Assembly (NCBI GenBank): GCA_011050525.1
Contig: DRFO01000017.1
Location: 434,001-498,000, forward strand
Source of the DNA: Halopseudomonas xinjiangensis
GTDB taxonomy: Bacteria > Pseudomonadota > Gammaproteobacteria > Pseudomonadales > Pseudomonadaceae
Length of the DNA stretch: 64,000 bases
Reading direction: 5' to 3'
Below, piece by piece: positions 21,177-33,551 of the stretch (positions are counted from its first letter, which is position 1; every line of letters starts with the position of its first letter). The notes under the pieces are model-generated. The model worked only from the letters and a program-made list of their open reading frames with translations, searched no databases and was not told where the DNA came from. Both the position numbers and the translations under genes were made by a program.

Positions 21177-21551
21177 CTAGCGTTCGCTAATGCAGGTGGC
21201 CACTATCTTGTGACCATCTGGATCGCGCACGTAGGCTGCATACACATTCGGCCCCACATCGCGAAACCCCGGTGCGCCAGCATCCGTTCCTCCTGCTTGC
21301 AGGGCACGCTTGTGAAACTCATCCACTGCGGCTCGATCCGCCGCTGCAAAGCCTACCGTCAGCCCGTTGCCTACGCTGGCGACGTTGCCATCGGCTGGCT
21401 TAAGCACTACGAAGCGCGGGCCTCCGCTGCCCCAGAGCGATGCCTTCTCCATGTTGCCGAGGTTTTCATAACCCAGTGCGCCAAGCACTGAATCGTAGAA
21501 GATACGAGCTCTGGATAGGTCGTTGGTACCCAAAGTGACGTGTGAAAACAT
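21177..21551 (-). CDS. VOC-superfamily (glyoxalase-fold) protein
   Basis: 124 residues starting MFSHVTLGTNDLSRARIFYD, a single vicinal-oxygen-chelate unit, ending with YVRDPDGHKIVATC. The family His of the first strand (SHVTLG) and a probable metal site in the last strand are present, as in small lactoylglutathione-lyase-like or resistance-like proteins. The frame is open further upstream, but GGAG before this ATG and homology set the start. It is the last gene of a leftward run with the two Rieske-type genes, 73 bases after them, so it may act on the same compound. Substrate unknown. Confidence 0.82.
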   Translation of the reverse strand: MFSHVTLGTNDLSRARIFYDSVLGALGYENLGNMEKASLWGSGGPRFVVLKPADGNVASVGNGLTVGFAAADRAAVDEFHKRALQAGGTDAGAPGFRDVGPNVYAAYVRDPDGHKIVATCISER

Positions 21552-21624
21552 AGGACGGTTCTCCTGGTTAACGCGCCTTTCATGGCGCTCAGTCGGTTTA
21601 AGAGGTTTCCTGGGCACGCAGCGG

Positions 21625-22662
21625 TTAGCCATCCATGCCTAGCAATGCAGTAATGTCACGTCCCGGTTCGGCATCAGCGCCATAGGAGAAGTCCCCTCGG
21701 CGCTGGCGCTCGGCCAGTTGTTCCATCTGGTAACGGTATCGGGTGCCAGGTGCATCGAAGCGAGAATGCAGGTCACGCCTGTCTGATGCATCCAGATAAC
21801 GCTCGTTCTGCGGACGTACCACCGAGTTGTCCTGGGGCTGGATGATGTAATTGATCCGCGGCATCAGATAGCGAAAGGGAGAGGGTGCAGCGGTAGTATT
21901 GAAGGTCACGTCGCAACGCGAGCGATGCCTGCCTACCGGCAGAAACGGCTGCAGATTGGGAATGTCGTAGCCCGGCCGGAACCGTGGGTAGGAGATGCAG
22001 ACATTGCTGCGCAGATGAATATGCAGCACCGCACGGAAATCCTGATACCTGGCGCGTATCCCGCCCACCCAGCGCATGACTGGCGCGACTGACTTCTGCG
22101 TGACCATACGGGTTCTGGTTACCGTTTCGGACGTCCATTCCACTTCGACGACGTCGGATTCGGAGATGCCGTCGCCGATGGTATTGGCATGCAGGAAGTC
22201 GGCGTGGGTCAGGTCGATGAGGTTTTCCACCGAGAGCGCCGATGAGGCGTCGAACCGGACGGTCCGCTGCGTGTAGCCCGGAATATTGCCGTCCAGGGGC
22301 AGGAAGGGGATATGGGGCAATAGTTGGATATCCGCGTGGTCGGGGTCGCCATACCACGCCCAGATATAGCCGTAGCGTTCGATGACAGGATAGCTGCCGG
22401 AACCGCCGGTGAAGGCGCTGCTGGCGTGGCGCAAGGCTGCCAGCCGCGATGGATGGAACTCGGCCGCTTGAGGTATACCGTTTTCACGCCAGAGAAAATA
22501 AGGCTGGGAGTGGATGATCCGGCGGATGGGTCTTGAAGTCACGTCGCGACTGTGCGAGACCGGAAACCAGGTATCGTGCAGATCATAATTGACCGGAGTC
22601 CAGTCGGAGGGACGCTTGGTGCGCTGCCCTGCGGCGGTGTTGCTGGTGGATACAGTGTGCAT
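21625..22662 (-). CDS. Rieske-oxygenase-like catalytic protein lacking the Rieske cluster
   Basis: 345 residues. The mononuclear iron motif of Rieske non-heme oxygenases is intact: Asn147-x2-Asp150-x2-His153-x4-His158 (ENLIDLTHADFLH), with a likely carboxylate ligand near Asp278 (PQDNSVV). The N-terminal fold is recognisable from DTWFPVSHS and YPVIERYGYIWAWYGDP, but between them, where C-x-H and C-x2-H should bind [2Fe-2S], there is only EFHPSRLAALRH; the whole protein has two cysteines, neither placed for a cluster. The ATG at 22662 has AGGAG eight bases before it, so I prefer it to the ATG at 22683. It lies just behind the Rieske-bearing partner gene. Confidence 0.8.
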   Translation of the reverse strand: MHTVSTSNTAAGQRTKRPSDWTPVNYDLHDTWFPVSHSRDVTSRPIRRIIHSQPYFLWRENGIPQAAEFHPSRLAALRHASSAFTGGSGSYPVIERYGYIWAWYGDPDHADIQLLPHIPFLPLDGNIPGYTQRTVRFDASSALSVENLIDLTHADFLHANTIGDGISESDVVEVEWTSETVTRTRMVTQKSVAPVMRWVGGIRARYQDFRAVLHIHLRSNVCISYPRFRPGYDIPNLQPFLPVGRHRSRCDVTFNTTAAPSPFRYLMPRINYIIQPQDNSVVRPQNERYLDASDRRDLHSRFDAPGTRYRYQMEQLAERQRRGDFSYGADAEPGRDITALLGMDG

Positions 22663-22683
22663 TTTGAATTCTCCTGGCAGCAT

Positions 22684-23625
22684 TCAGACGGCGGCACGTA
22701 GAGGGATTATTGACGAGTCACGTAGCCTTGCCAGATCGCGGGAGGGTGCTTCCAGCAGAGTGGCTAGGAGCTTGCCGTCAACCTGAGTGTGCACTCGGAA
22801 GGGCGGGCGTTTCATTTTGCGTGCCGCCCTCCAGCGCAGCGGTACGTGGCTGACATCACTCTGGTGCAGGAAGCCTCGCCAACAGACACTGGTGGTACCG
22901 CGTCGGTTGGCCCCTGAGGCAATGAAAACGGTGCACAACGGCGCCTCCTGTTCGGTGAGAAGCTCAACGCGAATGTCGCCTCCGCGCACAGGAACAGACG
23001 TACGGACGATCAGGGGATAGTCGACAACGAACTGCGGCGGCAGCACCCTGGTTGACCAGACTGCGCCTCGGTCAAGAACCAGATGGTCATTTTGCAGACG
23101 GGGATCGCCTAAAAAGAAGTCAGTCATCTTCACCGCGTCAAAACTGATCAGGCAGTGGGGCCCATCGAGCATTGCGGCAAGATATTCCTCGTGCAGAATA
23201 CTGATGGTGCCCGCGCCGGTATATTCGCGACCTTCAGGCTGATAAGTTGCCGCAGGCACCGACTCGTTCGGCTCATCTTCCCCTAACCAGACGTGAACAA
23301 ATCCGTTTCGCTCAGCCACAGGGTAGGGTCGCGCCGCATATCGGGCAGGCACTCGTTCATTGGCGTGCAGGTTGGGTATCGTCGTGCAAGCGCCGCTGGC
23401 GCCGTCAAATGTCCAGCCATGGTAGCCACACTGGATTCCGCTCTCTACAACGCAGCCAAGGGATAGGGGCACGCGGCGGTGAGGGCAGCGGTCTTCCAAT
23501 GCAAACGCCTGACCTTGCCTATCCCGAAACAGCGCTAGCTCCTCGCCATTGCAGACGACTGCCAGGGGTTTTTCATTGTTTACGGCCTCGGACAAAGCCG
23601 AAGCCCACCAAGCGTTATTAGCCAT
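22684..23625 (-). CDS. Rieske [2Fe-2S] protein of oxygenase alpha-subunit type with degenerate iron site
   Basis: 313 residues. The Rieske motif is complete: Cys47-Pro-His49 and Cys66-x2-His69 (CPHRR, CGYHGW), in the usual N-terminal domain. The catalytic half is also present, but the iron motif reads Ala151-x2-Asp154-x2-His157-x4-Phe162, so the second His is Phe and the Asn is Ala; mononuclear iron is unlikely to bind. The protein should therefore carry electrons rather than react with oxygen. It is the first gene of a leftward run and ends 21 bases before the complementary catalytic-site protein. A ferredoxin gene is divergent from it. Confidence 0.82.
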   Translation of the reverse strand: MANNAWWASALSEAVNNEKPLAVVCNGEELALFRDRQGQAFALEDRCPHRRVPLSLGCVVESGIQCGYHGWTFDGASGACTTIPNLHANERVPARYAARPYPVAERNGFVHVWLGEDEPNESVPAATYQPEGREYTGAGTISILHEEYLAAMLDGPHCLISFDAVKMTDFFLGDPRLQNDHLVLDRGAVWSTRVLPPQFVVDYPLIVRTSVPVRGGDIRVELLTEQEAPLCTVFIASGANRRGTTSVCWRGFLHQSDVSHVPLRWRAARKMKRPPFRVHTQVDGKLLATLLEAPSRDLARLRDSSIIPLRAAV

Positions 23626-23713
23626 CAGGTTACCTCTTTGTTGTTGTTTTGGTGTTATGTGCAGCCTTCGCCTTGCGGAAGATGCCTGGAAATACTTTAG
23701 GCTGGGCCAGCAT

Positions 23714-23742: not shown

Positions 23743-23822
23743 TATAAATGTTCAAATCTACTATTTCTTAAGGCATCATGAATTACCCAGTTACCGGTAG
23801 TCGTCAGGCGCGGAGAACCCCA

Positions 23823-24146
23823 ATGCCAACTGTAATTTTCAATTTTTCAGATGATCGTCAACAGGTTGTAGAAGCCGTTGCAGGCCTGACGCTTATGCAG
23901 GTTGCGGCTAACCACGGTCTGGACGGGATCCTGGGTGATTGTGGAGGGGCGTGCCAGTGCGCCACTTGTCACGTTTATATTGACGAGTCATGGCTGGAAC
24001 AACTGCCGGAGATGGATGGGATGGAAGACGACATGCTTGAAGGGGTTGCGGCTCCCCGGCTTGCCCAGAGCCGGCTGGGTTGCTGTGTAACCGTGAAGGC
24101 CGAACATGAGGGTATGGTGGTGACGTTTCCACCAACGCAGATTTGA
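23823..24146 (+). CDS. [2Fe-2S] ferredoxin, putidaredoxin type
   Basis: 107 residues starting MPTVIFNFSD. Cluster ligands are Cys40-x5-Cys46-x2-Cys49 and Cys87, the putidaredoxin/adrenodoxin spacing; extra cysteines at 44 and 88 sit beside them. Such ferredoxins feed electrons to cytochromes P450 or Rieske oxygenases. The ATG at 23823 has GGAG seven bases upstream; an earlier ATG at 23778 lacks one. It is divergent from the Rieske pair and may supply it with electrons. No ferredoxin reductase or P450 is in the window. Confidence 0.92.
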   Translation: MPTVIFNFSDDRQQVVEAVAGLTLMQVAANHGLDGILGDCGGACQCATCHVYIDESWLEQLPEMDGMEDDMLEGVAAPRLAQSRLGCCVTVKAEHEGMVVTFPPTQI

Positions 24147-24247: not shown

Positions 24248-25174
24248 CTATCTGACTTTGGCATAGATCTTTGCGTGTGGACCGTCGACCTGGGACGTCC
24301 ATGCCTGGGGCGAGTCATCAAAGGCAAACTCGGAATAGTCAACGGAAATGTTCTGCTCGGTTGCGATGGTGAGAAGGCGTTCCCAAATCTGGCGGCGGTC
24401 TGCAGGGGCGCGTTGGCCAGTGCCGATGCAGGAAAGCGTTTTGAACAGTAGATCGGCGATATCGAGATTGACCTGACGACCGGCTCCGGTCCCGATAGTC
24501 ATGATCCTGGCGCCCCAGCGCGACGCTTTTAACGCATTAAGCATGGGCTGTCCGCATACCAGGTCGAGCACCACGTCGAAACCCTCGCCAGCTTCCTTTT
24601 TCAGCGCCGCAACGTCAGTGTCGTCGCCTTTCAGACAGACTGTTGCATCGGCGATACCACGTTCCGTCAGCCGGGCCAGAGCCTTCTCGCTTCGGCCTGC
24701 TGCGACGACCCTGCCAGCCCCAAGGTAGCGTGCCAACTGCAATGCAATCTGGCCGAGCGTGCCGGTACCGCCCAGGATCAGAACGTTTTCACCTGGCTGA
24801 ATCCTGGCTGCTTCCAGCGGAACCAGCGCGCCTGTGGCCGCGATCCCCATGGTAATAGCCGTGCGATCATCGATATGGTCCGGCACATCCCAGACTTCTT
24901 CCGCGGGAACTACTGTTTGCTCCGCCCAAGCGCCAAACGGAAGCACTGAGCGTTCGCCGAAATAAACCCGTCTTCCATCATCAGTGCGGCCTACCCCTTC
25001 GCCGCGAATCACGCAGGGGTACTCGACGCCTAGCCGATAGGCCCCGAGTACGTCCCAGCCACCCAGGCCGGCGGTATCGACATGAATAAGTACGGCGCCT
25101 TCCTGGGGAGTCGGTTTCTTGAATTCCTGCATGACGGGCGTTGCGCCGCGTTCAGTAATGACAGCTGCTTTCAT
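24248..25174 (-). CDS. Zinc-free MDR oxidoreductase (quinone reductase/enoyl reductase type)
   Basis: 308 residues, GroES-like N-terminal domain and Rossmann domain with VLILGGTGTLGQIALQLAR (NADPH site). The zinc ligands of alcohol dehydrogenases (the catalytic Cys and the four-Cys lobe) are missing, so it belongs to the zinc-independent quinone oxidoreductase-like MDRs. Likely an NADPH-dependent reductase of an unsaturated ketone or quinone; substrate not visible. It points toward the ferredoxin gene and may belong to the same pathway as the Rieske pair. Confidence 0.85.
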   Translation of the reverse strand: MKAAVITERGATPVMQEFKKPTPQEGAVLIHVDTAGLGGWDVLGAYRLGVEYPCVIRGEGVGRTDDGRRVYFGERSVLPFGAWAEQTVVPAEEVWDVPDHIDDRTAITMGIAATGALVPLEAARIQPGENVLILGGTGTLGQIALQLARYLGAGRVVAAGRSEKALARLTERGIADATVCLKGDDTDVAALKKEAGEGFDVVLDLVCGQPMLNALKASRWGARIMTIGTGAGRQVNLDIADLLFKTLSCIGTGQRAPADRRQIWERLLTIATEQNISVDYSEFAFDDSPQAWTSQVDGPHAKIYAKVR

Positions 25175-25465: not shown

Positions 25466-26647
25466 TCAATCGCGCTCGACTGCCAGCGCGACCCCTTGTC
25501 CTCCACCGATACACAGCGTCGCCAGCCCTTTCTTGGCATCACGCCGAGCCATTTCATGAATAAGGGTAACCAGCACACGGCATCCGGATGCGCCGATGGG
25601 GTGACCCAGGGCGATAGCGCCGCCATTGACGTTGACCTTTGATACGTCCCATTCCAATTCCTTGCCGACCGACAGACACTGGGCGGCGAAGGCCTCATTG
25701 GCTTCGATCAGATCCAGTTCCGCGATGGACCAGCCGGCTTTGCTCAGGCATTTCTTGCTGGCTGGCACCGGTCCGATACCCATGATTGCCGGATCAACCG
25801 CTGCGCTGGCATAGCCCTTGATACGAGCCAGTACCGGCAGATTCAACGCCTTGGCCTTGTCCGCCGTCATCAGCATTACCGCCGCTGCGCCGTCATTCAG
25901 CGTCGAGGCATTACCAGCCGTGACGCTGCCGTCCTTCTTGAACGCTGGGCGCAGGCCCGCCAGGCTGCCTTCAGAGGTGTCGGCTCTGGGTTGCTCGTCG
26001 GTATCGAAGGCAACGGGATCGCCCTTGCGCTGGGGAATCATCACCGGTGTGATTTCATCCTGGAAGCGTCCGGCACTGATCGCCGCATTGGCGCGCTGCT
26101 GGGAAAGCAGGGCGTAGGCGTCCTGATCTTCGCGGCTGACCTGATACTGGCTTGCCAGATTTTCGGCGGTGATACCCATGTGGTAGTCGTTGAAAGCATC
26201 GATCAAGCCGTCTTTCAGCAAACTGTCTTCGAGCTGGGCATGGCCCATGCGCAGGCCGGTGCGCGCCTTGGGCAGCACGTAGGGCGCGAGGCTCATGCTT
26301 TCCATGCCGCCGGCAATGATGATCTCGGCGTCGCCACAGCGGATCGCCTGGATGGCCATATGCACGGCCTTGAGGCCGGAGCCGCATAGCTTGTTCAGCG
26401 TCAGCGCCGGGGTGCTGAACGGCAGGCCGGCATTGATTGCCGATTGACGGGCCGGGTTCTGGCCACAGCCAGCGGACAGTACCTGTCCGAGGATGACTTC
26501 ATCCACCTGGCTGGCGTCGAGGCCAGTGCTGCTCATTAACGAGCGGATAACGATGGCGCCCAGTTCAACCGCGGGCACGTTGGCCAGCGAGCCTTGAAAA
26601 CTACCGATGGCGGTACGCGTTGCCGCAACAATGACGACGTCTTGCAT
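25466..26647 (-). CDS. atoB: Acetyl-CoA acetyltransferase (thiolase)
   Basis: 393 residues. Thiolase type II with the acylated Cys in [10 protein letters not shown] (near residue 89), the EANEAFAAQ His/Asn segment (here Ala-Ala-Gln, as seen in some thiolases), [10 protein letters not shown] and the C-terminal [10 protein letters not shown] with the second active Cys. It splits acetoacetyl-CoA into two acetyl-CoA. The start [13 protein letters not shown] (26647) has a GGAGAA site; the earlier in-frame codon is not supported. It ends the leucine/acetoacetate module, after the CoA-transferase genes. Confidence 0.94.
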
Positions 26648-26782
26648 GATCTTTTCTCCAAAAAAAACGTGGCTACCGCAATGGTGAGCCACGTAAAAAC
26701 TTCAACGGGCAGCATTCCCAGTGCAGCTTGGTCAGCTACGCCGGAAACCAGGGAAGCCTGCCCCGTAGGGCAGTTGAGCAGG

Positions 26783-27433
26783 CTAGTGTTTGCTTTGGTA
26801 TTGCTCGGTCAGCACCGGGCAACCGGTTGCTTCCTGCAATGCCTGAACGGTGATGCCGGGCGCCAGTTCGAGCAGCTCCAGGCCAGCGTCGGTAATGTCC
26901 AGCACGGCCAGATCGGTGATGATCCGGGTGACCACACCCAGACCGGTCAGCGGCAGTTCGCACTGTTTGAGAATCTTCGGGCTGCCGTCTTTGGCGTTGT
27001 GCTCCATCAGCACCACGACGCGCTTGACGCCGGCGACCAGATCCATCGCGCCGCCCATGCCCTTGACCATCTTGCCGGGGATCATCCAGTTAGCCAGATC
27101 GCCTTTCTCCGACACCTGCATTGCACCCAGGATCGCCAGGTTGATATGTCCGCCACGGATCATGGCAAAGGAGTCGGCGTTGTCGAAGAAGCTGCTGCCG
27201 GGCAGGCTGGTAACGGTCTGCTTGCCAGCATTGATCAGGTCTGGATCGACCTTGTCTTCCTCCGGGAAGGGGCCGATGCCGAGCAGGCCATTCTCGCTCT
27301 GCAGCCACACATCCATGCCTTCGGGAATATAGTTGGCCACCAGTGTAGGCAGGCCGATGCCGAGGTTTACGTAAAAGCCGTCAGCCAATTCCTGAGCGGC
27401 TCGTTGCGCCATTTGTTCGCGTGTCCAGGCCAT
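26783..27433 (-). CDS. scoB: 3-oxoacid CoA-transferase subunit B
   Basis: 216 residues with the catalytic Glu in [14 protein letters not shown] and [13 protein letters not shown] near the N-terminus, typical of the beta subunit of succinyl-CoA:3-oxoacid CoA-transferase. Together with subunit A it moves CoA from succinyl-CoA to acetoacetate. An in-frame TTG at 27439 exists, but the ATG at 27433, two bases after the scoA stop, is the likely start with translational coupling. AtoA/DhcB are alternative names used for close relatives. Confidence 0.92.
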
Positions 27434-27435
27434 GA

Positions 27436-28134
27436 TCAAGCGCTCCGTGTGGTACGTTTTTCGATACGTTTTTCCGGATTGGCATTGAGCACAATCCGCT
27501 GTACGTAGATTCCCGGCAGGTGAATCTGATCGGGATCGAGCGCGCCGGTTTCGACGATTTCCTCGACCTCGACAATGCAGATTTTGCCGGCCGTTGCGGC
27601 GAGCGGGTTGAAGTTGCGCGCGGTCTTGTTGAACACCAGATTGCCGGATTTATCAGCCTTCCAGGCTTTGACCAGGGCCACATCCGCCGTCAACGAGTTT
27701 TCCATGACGTACCACTCGCCGTTGAACTGGCGGGTTTCCTTGCCTTCGGCGATCAGCGTGCCGTAGCCGGTCCGGGTATAGAAGGCCGGAATCCCGGCGC
27801 CACCAGCGCGCAGCTTTTCCGCCAGGGTACCCTGGGGCGTGAATTCCAGCTCCAGTTCGCCTGACAGGTACTGACGCTCGAACTCCTTGTTCTCGCCCAC
27901 ATAGGACGAAACCATCTTGCGGATCTGGCGGGATTCGAGCAGTAGCCCAAGCCCGAAACCGTCAACGCCAGCGTTGTTGCTGATAACGGTGAGATCCTTC
28001 TTCTGCGTGTCGCGCAGGGCTTCGATCAGCGCTTCGGGAATACCGCACAACCCGAACCCGCCGACCGCCAGCGTCATGCCGTCGTCGACAAGCCCGGCGA
28101 GGGCCTCCCGAGCGTTAGGATAAATTTTGTTCAT
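27436..28134 (-). CDS. scoA: 3-oxoacid CoA-transferase subunit A
   Basis: 232 residues. Shows the SCOT-A blocks [40 protein letters not shown] and [15 protein letters not shown]. These are of the SCOT type rather than the AtoD type. In P. aeruginosa a related pair handles 3-dehydrocarnitine next to atoB, so that substrate cannot be excluded, but the position directly after liuE, whose product is acetoacetate, favours acetoacetate activation. Confidence 0.92.
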
Positions 28135-28170
28135 TGTTATAGATGCTCCTCTTCCCGTTAAAGTCTGTCG

Positions 28171-29079
28171 TTATTGGTCACACTGACTGCTTTTGGCCCG
28201 GGCAACGCGGGAACCGGAGGGCCGGTTCAACAGCGTACTGATAAGGTTGCCGGCCTGCATCAGCGCGTCCAGGTCTATTCCAGTGTGGATGCCCAGGCCA
28301 TTGAGCATGTAGAGAACGTCTTCAGTGGCGACGTTACCGGTGGCGCCCTTGGCGTAGGGGCACCCGCCGAGGCCGGCAACCGAGCTGTCGAATACCTGGA
28401 TGCCTTCCAGCAGCCCGGCGTAGATATTGGCCAGCGCTTGCCCGTAGGTATCGTGAAAGTGGCCGGCCAGTTGATCACGTGGAATATGCTGGGCAACGGT
28501 TTCAAACAGATTGCGCGTGGCCCCGGGTGTGCCGGTACCAATGGTGTCGCCCAGGGAAATTTCGTAGCAGCCCATGGCGTGCAGTTCGCGGGCCACGCTG
28601 GCGACCTGGCTGGCGCTGATCTCGCCATCATAGGGACAGCCCAGCACGCAGGATACATAGCCGCGTACCCGCACGCCGGCTTCGGCTGCGGCGCTCATGA
28701 CGGGTTCGAAACGCTGTATGCTTTCACTGATCGAGCAATTGATATTGCGCTGTGAAAAGCCCTCGGAGGCTGCGGCAAACACTGCTACCTCTTCAGCGCC
28801 GGCTTGCAGCGCCATTTCAAAACCTTTCAGGTTAGGCGTGAGCGCCGCGTAGGTCGTGCCGGCGCGCCGCTGAATCCCGGCAAATACGTCCGAAGAGCCG
28901 GCCATCTGCGGGACCCACTTGGGCGAGACGAAACTGCCCACCTCGATATAGCCCACCCCGGCGTTGCTCAGGTCGTCGATCAGGCGGATCCTGTCAGCGT
29001 TGCTGACCGGCTGGGCTTCGTTCTGCAGGCCGTCACGCGCGCCTACTTCGACCAGTTTGACCGAGGCGGGCAGGCTCAT
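28171..29079 (-). CDS. liuE: Hydroxymethylglutaryl-CoA lyase
   Basis: 302 residues. TIM-barrel lyase of the HMGL family. VEVGARDGLQNE holds the metal-binding Asp and catalytic Arg, GHFHDTYGQALAN the metal His pair, and GGCPYAKGATGN the mobile loop with the active Cys. It splits HMG-CoA to acetoacetate and acetyl-CoA, the last step of the Liu pathway. Its ATG overlaps the liuD stop by four bases (ATGA), showing translational coupling. Confidence 0.95.
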   Translation of the reverse strand: MSLPASVKLVEVGARDGLQNEAQPVSNADRIRLIDDLSNAGVGYIEVGSFVSPKWVPQMAGSSDVFAGIQRRAGTTYAALTPNLKGFEMALQAGAEEVAVFAAASEGFSQRNINCSISESIQRFEPVMSAAAEAGVRVRGYVSCVLGCPYDGEISASQVASVARELHAMGCYEISLGDTIGTGTPGATRNLFETVAQHIPRDQLAGHFHDTYGQALANIYAGLLEGIQVFDSSVAGLGGCPYAKGATGNVATEDVLYMLNGLGIHTGIDLDALMQAGNLISTLLNRPSGSRVARAKSSQCDQ

Positions 29080-31037
29080 TGCGCTTCCTCCATTTCCACC
29101 AGCAGGGTGCCCTCGGCGATCAGCTCGCCTTCGGCGCAGAAGATTGCCTTAACTGTGCCGGCTTCGGCTGCGCGAATGCTGTGTTCCATCTTCATCGCTT
29201 CGAGCACCAGCAGCACGGCGCCAGCTTCGACCTGTTGGCCTGGCTCGACCATGACGCGCACGACGCTGCCATTCATTGGCGCCTGCAAACCCCCGGCGTG
29301 CTGGTGGGAATGGTCCACTTCAGCAATCGGGTCAAATCGATCGATCCGCTGCCAGCTGTTATGCCAGTGCAGATACAGGGCGCCATCGCTGATCAGCAGG
29401 CGGTAGCGGCGGGTCTGCTGCGCTTCGGTGATCAACAGCGTCTGGGTAGCCGGGCAATACGAGCAGCCGGTTACGTCTACGGCGGCAAAGGGCTGGTCCA
29501 ACTCACCACAACGCAGGTGCAGGCGGCTCTGCGCGGGCAGTCCGGCACGCCAGCTGGTCAGGTCAGTCCACGGCCCGGACGCCCGTGCGGCGGACTTGGA
29601 CGTTACGGACGAGGCACCCGGCATCGCCAGCAGCCAGGCCTTCGCCGCGGTGCGCCAAAATTGCTCATTGAGTGCTTCAGGCGCGGGCAACAGTTGCTCG
29701 GCATGACGCGGAATAAAGCCAGTATCCAGTTCGGCCTGGGCGAAGGCGGGGTGGGCCAGAATACGGGTCAGGAACTTCAGGTTGGTCTGCACGCCCGCCA
29801 CCACGGTCTCGCGCAGCATGGCCAGCAGCGACAGTCGCGCCTCTTCCCGCGTCTCGCCCCAGGCAATCAGTTTGGCGATCATCGGATCGTAGAACGGCGA
29901 GACGACGTCGCCTTCGGTAACGCCGCTATCCACGCGGCGGCCCTTGCCGGCGGGAGGTTCGCGATACAGCTGCAAAGTGCCGCTGGCTGGCAGAAAGTCG
30001 TTATCGGTATCTTCGGCGTACAGGCGCACCTCAATGGCGTGCCCCATCAGCGGCACCTGCTCCTGGGTCAGCGGGAGCTTCTCGCCCTGGGCCACCCGCA
30101 ACTGCCAGGCGACCAGATCCTGCCCGGTGATAGCTTCGGTGACTGGATGCTCGACCTGCAGGCGGGTGTTCATTTCCATAAAGAAAAATTCGCCGCGCGC
30201 GTCCAGCAGAAACTCCACCGTGCCGGCGCCGACGTAGCCGATAGCCTGGGCGGCCTTCACCGCGGCATCGCCCATGGCCTTGCGCAGCTCGGACGAAAGA
30301 CCCGGCGCAGGCGCTTCTTCAACCACCTTCTGGTGACGACGCTGGATCGAACAGTCGCGTTCGTTCAGGTACACGCCGTTGCCATGCTGGTCGGCAAACA
30401 CCTGGATTTCCACGTGGCGGGGCTGCAACACGTACTTTTCCACCAGCATGCGCGCATCGCCAAAGGAGGACTGGGCTTCGCGTTGCGCCGATGCCAGGGC
30501 TTCAGCCATATCCGCTTCGCGTTCGACCACCTTCATGCCCTTGCCACCACCACCGGCGGTGGCCTTGAGCAATACCGGGTAGCCGATGCGCTCAGCAGCC
30601 GTTATGAAGGTCTGCAGGTCCTGTTCGTCGCCATGGTAGCCGGGCACCAGCGGCACGCCGGCTTTTTCCATCAATGCCTTGGCCGCTGATTTGCTGCCCA
30701 TGGCATCAATGGCCGAGGCGGGTGGCCCGACGAAGATCAGGCCCTGCTCTTCGCAGGCACGGGCAAAGCCGGCATTCTCGGATAGAAAACCGTAGCCGGG
30801 ATGAATCGCCTGGGCACCGCTGGCATGGGCGGCGGCAAGAATCTTGTCGACCAGCAGATAGCTGTCCGCTGGTTTCGCGCCACCCAGGCCAATGGCTATA
30901 TCGGCTTGCAGGACGTGCTGCGCCTGACGGTCAACGTCACTGTGTACGGCAACAGTGGTAATGCCCATCTCTCTGGCGGTGCGCATGACCCGGCAGGCAA
31001 TTTCGCCGCGGTTGGCGATAAGCAGGGTATTGATCAT
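29076..31037 (-). CDS. liuD: Methylcrotonyl-CoA carboxylase, biotin-carrying alpha subunit
   Basis: 653 residues starting MINTLLIANRGEIACRV. Biotin carboxylase with the ATP-grasp glycine loop (KATAGGGGKGMK) and the EMNTRLQVEHPVTE active-site block, followed by a C-terminal biotinyl domain with EAMKMEH. With LiuB it carboxylates 3-methylcrotonyl-CoA. A start 16 codons upstream is in frame but lacks similarity. A long open frame on the other strand here is a by-product of GC-rich codon use. Confidence 0.95.
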   Translation of the reverse strand: MINTLLIANRGEIACRVMRTAREMGITTVAVHSDVDRQAQHVLQADIAIGLGGAKPADSYLLVDKILAAAHASGAQAIHPGYGFLSENAGFARACEEQGLIFVGPPASAIDAMGSKSAAKALMEKAGVPLVPGYHGDEQDLQTFITAAERIGYPVLLKATAGGGGKGMKVVEREADMAEALASAQREAQSSFGDARMLVEKYVLQPRHVEIQVFADQHGNGVYLNERDCSIQRRHQKVVEEAPAPGLSSELRKAMGDAAVKAAQAIGYVGAGTVEFLLDARGEFFFMEMNTRLQVEHPVTEAITGQDLVAWQLRVAQGEKLPLTQEQVPLMGHAIEVRLYAEDTDNDFLPASGTLQLYREPPAGKGRRVDSGVTEGDVVSPFYDPMIAKLIAWGETREEARLSLLAMLRETVVAGVQTNLKFLTRILAHPAFAQAELDTGFIPRHAEQLLPAPEALNEQFWRTAAKAWLLAMPGASSVTSKSAARASGPWTDLTSWRAGLPAQSRLHLRCGELDQPFAAVDVTGCSYCPATQTLLITEAQQTRRYRLLISDGALYLHWHNSWQRIDRFDPIAEVDHSHQHAGGLQAPMNGSVVRVMVEPGQQVEAGAVLLVLEAMKMEHSIRAAEAGTVKAIFCAEGELIAEGTLLVEMEEAQ

Positions 31038-31090
31038 TTTTGTTCGTCCCACATCATGGCGAAGTGTGTGTTGTTCGGTGTTCATTGTCT

Positions 31091-31885
31091 TTAGCCTTGC
31101 TGCCAGGCTGGCTTGCGCTTTTCCAGAAAAGCGCTCAGGCCTTCCTGACCCTCGGCGCTGACCCGGATGCTGGCAATGGCCGCTTCGGTATAACTGCGGA
31201 CGTCGCCGGTCAGTTCACCGTGCTTGACGGTCTGCATCAACGCTTTGGTCGCGCTCATGGCCTGGGGGCTGTTCAGCAGCAGATTGTCGACCCACTCCTG
31301 TAGCGCTACGCCCAGCTTCTCGGCCGGATAGCATTCGGCGAGCAATCCCAGTTCCCGTGCCCGTTCGCCGCTGAAACGCTCGGCGGTCAGGGCGTAGCGG
31401 CGCGCCGCTCGTTGGCCGATGGCCTGCACCACGTAGGGACTGATGACCGCGGGAAGCAAGCCGATGCGCACCTCGGACAGGCTGTACAGGCTGTCGCTGG
31501 TACCGATGGCGATATCGCAGCAACTGATCAAGCCCAGCGCACCACCAAAGGCTGCCCCGTGTACCACGGCCAGGGTCGGCAGGCTGAGCTGCGCAAGACT
31601 GGCCATCAGTTGCCCCAGCTCTCTGGCGTCACCCAGGTTGGCCTGATAATCGAGCTTGGCGCATTCCTGCATCCAGGTCAGATCGGCTCCGGCAGAGAAA
31701 TGCTTGCCGCGCCCGCGTAACAGGAGGAACCGCAGCCCTTCGGCAGACTGGATCTCATTCATGGCCGCCAGCAGTTCGCTGATCATCTCGGCATTGAAGG
31801 CATTGTTGCGTTCGGGCCGGTTCAGCCACAGAGTCGCTACGCCGTTGTCGCTGTATTCGAGTTCGATTGTCTTGAAGCTGGTCAT
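31091..31885 (-). CDS. liuC: 3-Methylglutaconyl-CoA hydratase
   Basis: 264-residue crotonase starting MTSFKTIELEY. Has the oxyanion-hole segments RGRGKHFSAGADLTWM and HGAAFGGALGLISCCDIAI, and SEVRIGLLPAVISPYV. In the AUH/LiuC group one catalytic Glu of the crotonase pair is replaced, as the GGALGL segment shows here. It hydrates 3-methylglutaconyl-CoA to HMG-CoA. Located between liuB and liuD in the operon order known from P. aeruginosa. Confidence 0.92.
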   Translation of the reverse strand: MTSFKTIELEYSDNGVATLWLNRPERNNAFNAEMISELLAAMNEIQSAEGLRFLLLRGRGKHFSAGADLTWMQECAKLDYQANLGDARELGQLMASLAQLSLPTLAVVHGAAFGGALGLISCCDIAIGTSDSLYSLSEVRIGLLPAVISPYVVQAIGQRAARRYALTAERFSGERARELGLLAECYPAEKLGVALQEWVDNLLLNSPQAMSATKALMQTVKHGELTGDVRSYTEAAIASIRVSAEGQEGLSAFLEKRKPAWQQG

Positions 31886-31943
31886 GGCTTTCTCTATCCG
31901 TGTTGTGGCAATCAGCCGCCTGGTGAGGCGGCGGCTGAAGCAA

Positions 31944-33551
31944 TCACATCCTGAACACCCCAAAGCGGGTCGGTACAATAGGCGCATTTAGCGCGGCGGA
32001 TATTGCCAGCCCGAGTACGTCGCGGGTCTGCGCCGGGTCAATTACCCCGTCGTCCCATAACCGCGCGCTGGAATAGTAGGGATGACCCTGCCGCTCGTAC
32101 TGCTCGAGAATCGGTTTGCGCAGCGTCTGTTCCTGCTCGGCGCTGAAGGTCTCGCCGGCGCGCTCAGCCTGTTCATGCTTGACCTGCACCAGCACGCCTG
32201 CTGCCTGTTCGCCACCCATTACCGAAATGCGCGCATTGGGCCACATCCACAGGAAACGGGGATCGTAGGCGCGGCCGCACATGCCGTAGTTGCCGGCGCC
32301 GAAGCTGCCGCCGATGATCACGGTGAACTTGGGCACCTGGGCGCAGGCCACGGCCGTGACCAGTTTGGCTCCGTGCTTGGCAATACCGCCAGCCTCGTAT
32401 TTCTGCCCGACCATAAAGCCAGTGATGTTTTGCAGGAACAGCAGCGGAATGCCGCGCTGGCAGGCCAGTTCGATAAAGTGCGCGCCTTTCTGCGCGGACT
32501 CGGCGAAGAGGATGCCGTTGTTCGCCAGGATTGCTACCGGATGCCCATGCAGATGGGCAAAGCCGCACACCAGCGTGGTGCCGTACAGCGCCTTGAATTC
32601 ATCAAACTGACTGTCATCGACCAGGCGGGCGACCACTTCGCGCACATCAAAAGGTTGCTTGGCATCGGCCGGGATGATGCCGTACAGCTCGTCGCTGGCG
32701 TAGCGCGGGTTGATTGGTGCGCGGCTGTTCAGCTCACCCTGCTTGCGCCAGTTCAGATTGGCGATGCAGCGTCGGGCAATGGCCAGGGCGTGTTCGTCGT
32801 TCTCGGCATAGTGATCAGCCACGCCTGAAGTCTTGCAGTGCACATCGGCGCCGCCCAGATCCTCGGCGCTGACCACTTCACCGGTGGCGGCCTTGACCAG
32901 CGGTGGCCCGGCAAGAAAAATGGTTGCCTGGTTGCGCACCATGATCGCTTCGTCTGCCATCGCCGGCACATACGCGCCGCCCGCGGTACAGGAGCCCATG
33001 ACCACGGCAATCTGCGGAATGCCCTGGGCGCTCATGTTGGCCTGGTTGAAGAAGATGCGGCCGAAATGCTCGCGGTCGGGGAATACTTCATCCTGGCGTG
33101 GCAGGTTGGCACCGCCGGAATCGACCAGATAGATACACGGCAGGCGATTCTGCTGGGCAATGGTCTGCGCGCGCAGGTGCTTCTTTACCGTCAGCGGATA
33201 ATAGGAGCCGCCTTTGACCGTCGCGTCATTGGCCACGATCATGCATTCGACACCTTCCACGCGCCCGATGCCGGCGATCAGGCCGGCGGCCGGCACGTCT
33301 TCGCCATAGACCTCATGGGCGGTCAGTTGGCCGATCTCCAGAAACGGCGAGCCTGGGTCGAGCAGGGCATCGATGCGCTGACGAGGCAACAGTTTGCCGC
33401 GCGAAAGGTGGCGCTCCTGGGCCTTGGCGCCGCCGCCTTCGGCAACGCGCGCCAGCAACTCGCGCAGGTCCGTCACCAGTGTTTGCATGGCCGAGCAGTT
33501 AACCGCATAGTCCGGCGCGTTGCGGTTGATTTGGCTGTTGAGAATGCTCAT
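31944..33551 (-). CDS. liuB: Methylcrotonyl-CoA carboxylase, carboxyltransferase beta subunit
   Basis: 535 residues, crotonase-fold carboxyltransferase with [31 protein letters not shown] and [22 protein letters not shown] blocks diagnostic of MCC-beta. It takes carboxyl from the biotin of LiuD to 3-methylcrotonyl-CoA. It follows liuA by 26 bases and shares its transcript. Confidence 0.95.

Follow-up and report, generated by a model that had tools for sequence, protein, structure and literature searches.

Rieske non-heme iron oxygenases divided between polypeptide chains have already been described, and two of them are close to the system presented here. In the work of Kunugi et al. in 2013 in JBC, the Rieske and iron motifs of the Micromonas chlorophyllide a oxygenase are reportedly on separate chains, both of which are needed. 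In the sections cited here, the enzyme of Micromonas pusilla is described as two polypeptide chains, earlier suggested to form a heterodimer and proposed to assemble as a trimer of dimers, and as active in vitro with VanB and NADPH (PMC9615114). In the caffeine N7-demethylase NdmC/NdmD/NdmE of Pseudomonas putida CBB5, as far as the cited part of its description goes, the iron subunit has no cluster and uses the Rieske centre of the other chain, NdmD, in which the Rieske domain is fused to a reductase, and the GST-like protein NdmE is required (PMC4408171). For the class in general, the cited part of a 2025 review places the Rieske cluster of one monomer at about 12 Å from the iron of the adjacent subunit, with a conserved aspartate bridging cluster and iron between subunits, and states that C3 oligomers are formed; it lists dicamba monooxygenase (DdmC) as an alpha3 trimer and NdmA/NdmB as an alpha3-alpha'3 oxygenase (PMC12445004).

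The window, i.e., the whole stretch of 64,000 nucleotides of Halopseudomonas xinjiangensis DNA that was analysed, contains two adjacent genes of the same strand, hereafter A and B, each of which lacks the metal site kept by the other. A preliminary description, made from the letters alone, had claimed exactly this division, and it is borne out: both frames are open, the translation of A contains C47-x-H49/C66-x2-H69 together with Ala151, Asp154, His157 and Phe162, and that of B contains N147, D150, H153 and H158 and no Rieske cysteines. To these residues can be added D278, the third iron ligand of B, which was absent from that description. The ribosome-binding sites that it had called good are also found, as AGAGG and AGGAG before the starts of A and B, respectively. 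We propose, with a probability of roughly 0.86, that A and B together make up a single Rieske non-heme iron oxygenase, as subunits between which its two metal sites have been divided. The features of the pair, with the residues of B numbered from the ATG at 22662, are the following.

21625..22662, minus strand: gene B, iron-only alpha-like subunit of 345 aa, the longest frame starting at 22683 (frame, Pfam, alignment and model)
22189..22224, minus strand: iron motif of B, N147-x2-D150-x2-H153-x4-H158, present in 33/33 aligned B sequences
21829..21831, minus strand: D278, third iron ligand of B, carried by the long helix 263-290 (alignment and models)
22671..22675, minus strand: ribosome-binding site of B, AGGAG, 8 bases before the ATG (by eye)
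22684..23625, minus strand: gene A, Rieske-only alpha-like subunit of 313 aa (frame, Pfam, alignment and model)
23419..23487, minus strand: Rieske motif of A, C47-x-H49 ... C66-x2-H69, its ligands present in 34/34 aligned A sequences
23140..23175, minus strand: former iron site of A, A151-x2-D154-x2-H157-x4-F162 (joint alignment)
23633..23637, minus strand: ribosome-binding site of A, AGAGG, 7 bases before the ATG (by eye)

Gene A keeps 4/4 Rieske ligands and 1/3 iron ligands. Its product thus has one of the two conventional marks of an alpha subunit, the C-x-H ... C-x2-H motif, and lacks the other, the 2-His-1-carboxylate iron site. Pfam finds only Rieske domains in it (PF00355, 1.6e-21), with no flavin, NAD or Fer2 domain, and its matches to the Rieske ferredoxin models AndAb and HcaC fall short of the cut-offs of these models. 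The product of gene B is the converse: Pfam finds only the VanA_C catalytic domain (1.4e-32), and the 2-His-1-carboxylate iron site is complete, without the C-x-H/C-x2-H Rieske motif, whose columns are gapped in 33/33 B sequences.

To place the pair in a family, 84,980 species genomes were scanned with peptide patterns taken from B, which cover neither metal motif, so that motif retention is not built into the outcome; being seeded from B, the scan could miss more distant or intermediate forms. It yields 74 loci. True members are found at 58 of them (L032-L089), where the sequence is 38-100% identical over most of B or to the contig end, while the other 16 (L090-L105), with 23-37% identity over part of B, hold ordinary oxygenases with both motifs. 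As the database records name the taxa, the 58 loci span Gamma-, Beta- and Alphaproteobacteria and Actinomycetota, and they belong to Halopseudomonas, Stutzerimonas, Pseudomonas, Paraburkholderia (including P. xenovorans LB400), Polaromonas, Oxalobacteraceae, Aromatoleum/Thauera, Colwellia, Spongiibacter, Pseudomaricurvus, Porticoccaceae, Hyphomonadaceae, Sphingobium, Streptomyces and Mycolicibacter(ium). At each of the 58, A and B lie on one strand with the A directly upstream, as holds for 58 of the 59 B genes that these loci contain, the odd one being an extra B that lies beside a complete A-B pair in Mycolicibacter senuensis (L120:12944-13984, minus strand) and has no A of its own. This extra B might share the A of its neighbour, so that one Rieske subunit would serve two catalytic ones. 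Mycolicibacterium porcinum has two divergent A-B pairs within 8 kb (L119:7218-15211), and in Pseudomonas fluorescens PS662 the pair occurs twice, on separate contigs with similar flanks (L052 and L053), which may reflect a large duplication or an assembly artefact. When the longest frames are taken, A and B overlap by 4 bases in L089, by 1 in L070 and L074 and by 8 in L088; these short overlaps, seen at several loci, suggest coupled translation.

The two genes are also present or absent together in the genome samples searched. Among 96 related genomes, B is found at 95-100% identity in the window genome and in 7 of the 36 others of the same genus, with A adjoining it in each, and three diverged A-B pairs, with B at 37-47% identity, occur in one genome of another family of the same order (G087). 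This last genome (L079, L088 and L089) is titled Verrucomicrobiaceae although it is placed in the window's own order, and the title of this MAG may be wrong. Profile searches at E 1e-45 find A in 14/298 genomes of the family to which the window belongs, and exactly these 14 also have B. In the phylum sample, both are found in the window genome and in 0/298 others; the A/B system is therefore rare. In the family of M. porcinum (151 genomes) and in the order of Sphingobium TCM1 (186 genomes), A or B is found only in the starting genome, which has both, and these two samples thus add no independent positives. In all the family, phylum and order searches the best few candidates were scored per genome, so that absence is to be read as not absolute. 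A search of 72,556 plasmids at a coverage of at least 80% finds A in four records, two of them of Croceicoccus marinus, and B in these same four. None of the 16 pattern-matching stretches in the viral collection encodes an A/B relative. The preliminary description had asked whether homologues of either gene are commonly found alone, and the 58/59 B genes with an A directly upstream, together with the same 14/298 genomes of the family, answer that they are not.

The split is strict throughout the family. A joint alignment was made of 34 A sequences, 33 B sequences and 26 of the 36 ordinary oxygenase frames, the former two sets comprising 33/59 A and 32/59 B genes of the 58 loci plus the window's own. 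The genes omitted are mostly near copies; among the others, L080 was left out of the A set since the frame chosen was short, its stop-to-stop frame having the Rieske motif, L060 out of the B set as its chosen frame was short, though open upstream of the start used, and L078 and L083 out of the B set as the contig ends inside the gene. The Rieske ligands are present in 34/34 A and 26/26 ordinary sequences, with gaps in 33/33 B. Conversely, the Asn, the bridging Asp, the two His and the third-ligand Asp are present in 33/33 B and 26/26 ordinary sequences. In A, the iron-site Asn is kept in 1/34 sequences, the first His in 3/34, the window's A among them, and the second His in 0/34, and 34/34 have a gap at the third ligand; the bridging-Asp position is nevertheless kept in 28/34 and Pro156 in 34/34. 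When all open frames of all loci are considered, a set that is redundant as some genomes were fetched more than once, they comprise 81 Rieske-only A, 81 iron-only B and 36 ordinary frames with both sites, with no intermediate motif state among them: both sites are on one polypeptide in 0/81 A-type, 0/81 B-type and 36/36 ordinary frames. Homologues with full motifs in the same clade, another possibility raised in the preliminary description, are hence not found among the 81 A-type and 81 B-type frames. Scores separate the groups by a wide gap as well, the A scores being at least 259.3 bits for A frames vs at most 120.5 for ordinary frames, and the B scores at least 362.9 bits for B frames vs at most 85.5.

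Both genes are under purifying selection in 6/6 pairwise comparisons, with dN/dS of 0.10-0.36 for A and 0.02-0.15 for B. The comparison of the window with H. bauzanensis gives a relaxed value of 0.36 for A and 0.02 for B. The A-A and B-B distances are correlated (r 0.92 over 25 thinned pairs, with 0/5000 permutations as high), as joint inheritance alone could also produce. In a quick tree, accompanied by long-branch warnings, the A sequences form one side of a branch with a support of 99 and the B sequences likewise with a support of 100. An AU test on A and B as sisters arising from one gene duplication gives p 0.49, by which this origin is neither shown nor rejected.

The single-chain structure predictions proposed in the preliminary description give, for both A and B, models with the two-domain fold of an oxygenase subunit, with mean pLDDT of 89.3 and 86.3, respectively, and moderate scores in fold searches: whole-chain TM values are at most 0.72 for either chain. 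Dicamba monooxygenase is ranked first for both, with a query-normalised TM of 0.64 at rank 1 for A and of 0.69-0.70 at ranks 1-3 for B, while the highest TM for A is that of guaiacol O-demethylase (7qwt). DdmC and 7qwt are the leading fold matches of A and B, and also their best PDB sequence matches; unlike A and B, which have one metal site each, such ordinary alpha subunits bear both. The whole-chain superposition of A on solved oxygenases is loose (rmsd 6.4-12.3 Å among the best 50 matches), and the packing and orientation of its two predicted domains are therefore uncertain. Where the model of B has the helix bearing the third ligand, that of A has only a short helix (263-270), indicating that A has lost this element in the predicted structure. 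The Rieske-like domain of B is in turn without cluster-binding loops.

The two domains of each chain are not conserved to the same extent. In the thinned set, mean pairwise identity in A is 0.51 for the Rieske domain vs 0.28 for the catalytic-like domain, whereas in B it is about equal, at 0.49 for the Rieske-like domain and 0.51 for the catalytic domain. A is not alone in having a faster-changing catalytic domain: the same trend, although weaker, is observed in the ordinary oxygenases compared (0.38 for the Rieske domain vs 0.24 for the catalytic domain). The outstanding feature is rather that the Rieske-like domain of B is conserved despite the absence of cluster ligands.

When compared with the known systems, A and B are a variant of the split Rieske oxygenases and not a new kind, because NdmC/NdmD/NdmE and the Micromonas chlorophyllide a oxygenase precede them. 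The latter, likened here by description, is a Rieske oxygenase in two chains, as A and B would be, with motifs that are reportedly complementary, but it is eukaryotic and serves chlorophyll b synthesis, whereas A and B are spread over four bacterial classes and have catabolic-looking neighbours. B resembles NdmC as an iron chain that would be served by a Rieske centre on another chain. A differs from NdmD in being an alpha-like Rieske chain with no flavin or NAD domain by Pfam, and membership of the NdmC/NdmD type was rejected since Pfam finds no reductase domain in A. NdmC/NdmD, named in the preliminary description as the nearest precedent, is thus a related one, but the closest is the Micromonas enzyme, which was not named there. 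NdmA/NdmB shares with the pair the presence of two different alpha-type subunits in one complex, as A and B would have. In the open literature, subscription papers lying mostly outside the scope of the search, no bacterial Rieske oxygenase split into two complementary alpha-like subunits was found.

The genes that surround the pair could provide indications on its electron donor and its substrate. Those nearest to it in the window are the following.

23778..24146, plus strand: divergent [2Fe-2S] ferredoxin (Fer2, 9.3e-9), candidate electron donor
21177..21632, minus strand: VOC/glyoxalase-like gene downstream of the pair, likely start at 21551 (by eye), possibly in the same operon
24248..25174, minus strand: zinc-binding dehydrogenase of 308 aa, weakly PIG3 quinone-reductase-like, below the cut-off

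A relative of the window ferredoxin is found in 10/76 sequences searched, the window included, these sequences partly overlapping and many having short flanks. In G087, a ferredoxin is followed by a gene resembling, by eye, a ferredoxin reductase, and this putative FAD reductase, used as a query, matches its own locus only, with no relative in the other 75 sequences. With a ferredoxin in only 10/76 sequences, an electron donor shared by the A/B pairs is not established. The VOC gene lies beside the pair in 8/8 loci of the same genus, including the window's, and is cut by the locus end in one of them. Relatives of the zinc-binding dehydrogenase are found in 12/76 sequences searched, the window included; several Gamma- and Betaproteobacteria have this gene in the vicinity of the pair (L126:15064-15990, L106:13152-14078 and L125:6949-7875). 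Farther along the window, 25466-33551 on the minus strand holds thiolase, CoA-transferase, HMG-CoA-lyase-like and carboxylase genes that resemble, by eye, those of leucine/isovalerate degradation. Elsewhere, the neighbours of the pair, identified by annotation, Pfam or eye, include SDR dehydrogenases, thiolase, DUF1302/DUF1329, MMPL, P450, CoA-transferase and GMC oxidoreductase genes. Some A-B clusters also hold a separate ring-hydroxylating dioxygenase, and the clusters differ between hosts. These differing neighbours point to substrates that would be hydrophobic and vary with the host. The abietane (dit) pathway was considered following the presence of the pair in Paraburkholderia xenovorans LB400 and P. 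vancouverensis, and it was set aside: the passages on dit consulted name no such subunits.

From the sequences, their conservation, co-occurrence and selection and the predicted folds, we strongly infer that A and B act as one enzyme. The [2Fe-2S] Rieske cluster of A would take electrons from a ferredoxin or a reductase, perhaps, in the window genome, from the divergently transcribed [2Fe-2S] ferredoxin. Electrons would then presumably cross the A/B interface from the cluster of A to B, whose mononuclear iron would activate O2 and oxidise a probably hydrophobic, catabolic substrate. Electron transfer between subunits is the normal route in this class, which counts in favour of an A-to-B transfer. 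The degenerate domains, catalytic-like in A and Rieske-like in B, could serve as a scaffold holding the subunits head to tail. Only the A-to-B interface would have all that is needed, i.e., the cluster of A and the iron and Asp of B; A-A, B-B and B-to-A interfaces would not.

Other readings of the same data have to be weighed against this one. A could be a free-standing, oversized Rieske ferredoxin acting as a transient shuttle to a homotrimer of B, without any fixed mixed oligomer. Such a shuttle would agree with the faster drift of the catalytic-like domain of A than of its Rieske domain (0.28 vs 0.51) and with the sub-cut-off matches to AndAb and HcaC. However, a predicted full-length, two-domain fold, with Pro156 in 34/34 and the bridging-Asp position in 28/34 sequences, seems to be more than a shuttle needs, the gene overlaps at several loci suggest co-translation, and the Rieske-like domain of B remains conserved (0.49) though its cluster loops are gone, so that we consider a shuttle unlikely. 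It is very improbable that A and B are independent enzymes or pseudoenzymes merely sharing an operon, with, for example, B fed by a ferredoxin and A being regulatory: the joint presence and joint absence of the genes in the samples searched, the exact partition of the ligands and the correlated divergence all argue against it, even if one B of M. senuensis has no A of its own.

It is scarcely credible, finally, that an ancestral oxygenase was duplicated and both copies are being lost, or that the split is a sequencing artefact. The loss of one metal site per gene could be read in this way, as could the dN/dS of 0.36 for A between the window and H. bauzanensis, against 0.02 for B. But the same state is found in four bacterial classes with intact frames, the ligands are invariant in 34/34 A and 33/33 B sequences, and dN/dS is low in the other five comparisons; decay into pseudogenes was rejected on this ligand conservation and these dN/dS values. 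The preliminary description had already argued against decay from the two frames of the window, and conservation across 58 loci together with purifying selection in 6/6 comparisons now gives this argument a broader basis.

If A and B are indeed subunits of one enzyme, their arrangement is constrained: A and B cannot alternate strictly around a head-to-tail ring of three, and stoichiometry is therefore the sharpest question. That the pairs form a family of bacterial Rieske oxygenases in which two chains are obligatory, and whose quaternary structure is new to the class, has in our opinion an even chance of being right. If this is true, either each trimer would have a single working A-to-B interface, or the assembly would be even-membered or a trimer of dimers, and a dead interface would be freed for another role, for example substrate channelling or control. 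The products of A and B are currently annotated singly, on three plasmids as "Rieske 2Fe-2S domain-containing protein" or "Rieske (2Fe-2S) protein" for A and as "oxygenase" or "aromatic ring-hydroxylating dioxygenase subunit alpha" for B; going by such single-protein annotations, either of them expressed alone may be a dead enzyme. In ordinary oxygenases, both metals are on each alpha subunit, so that cluster and iron are inseparable without mixing mutants. In the A/B system, the half-reactions would be on two genes; cluster and iron could be mutated, reduced and counted independently, and the number of productive interfaces per ring would become directly testable.
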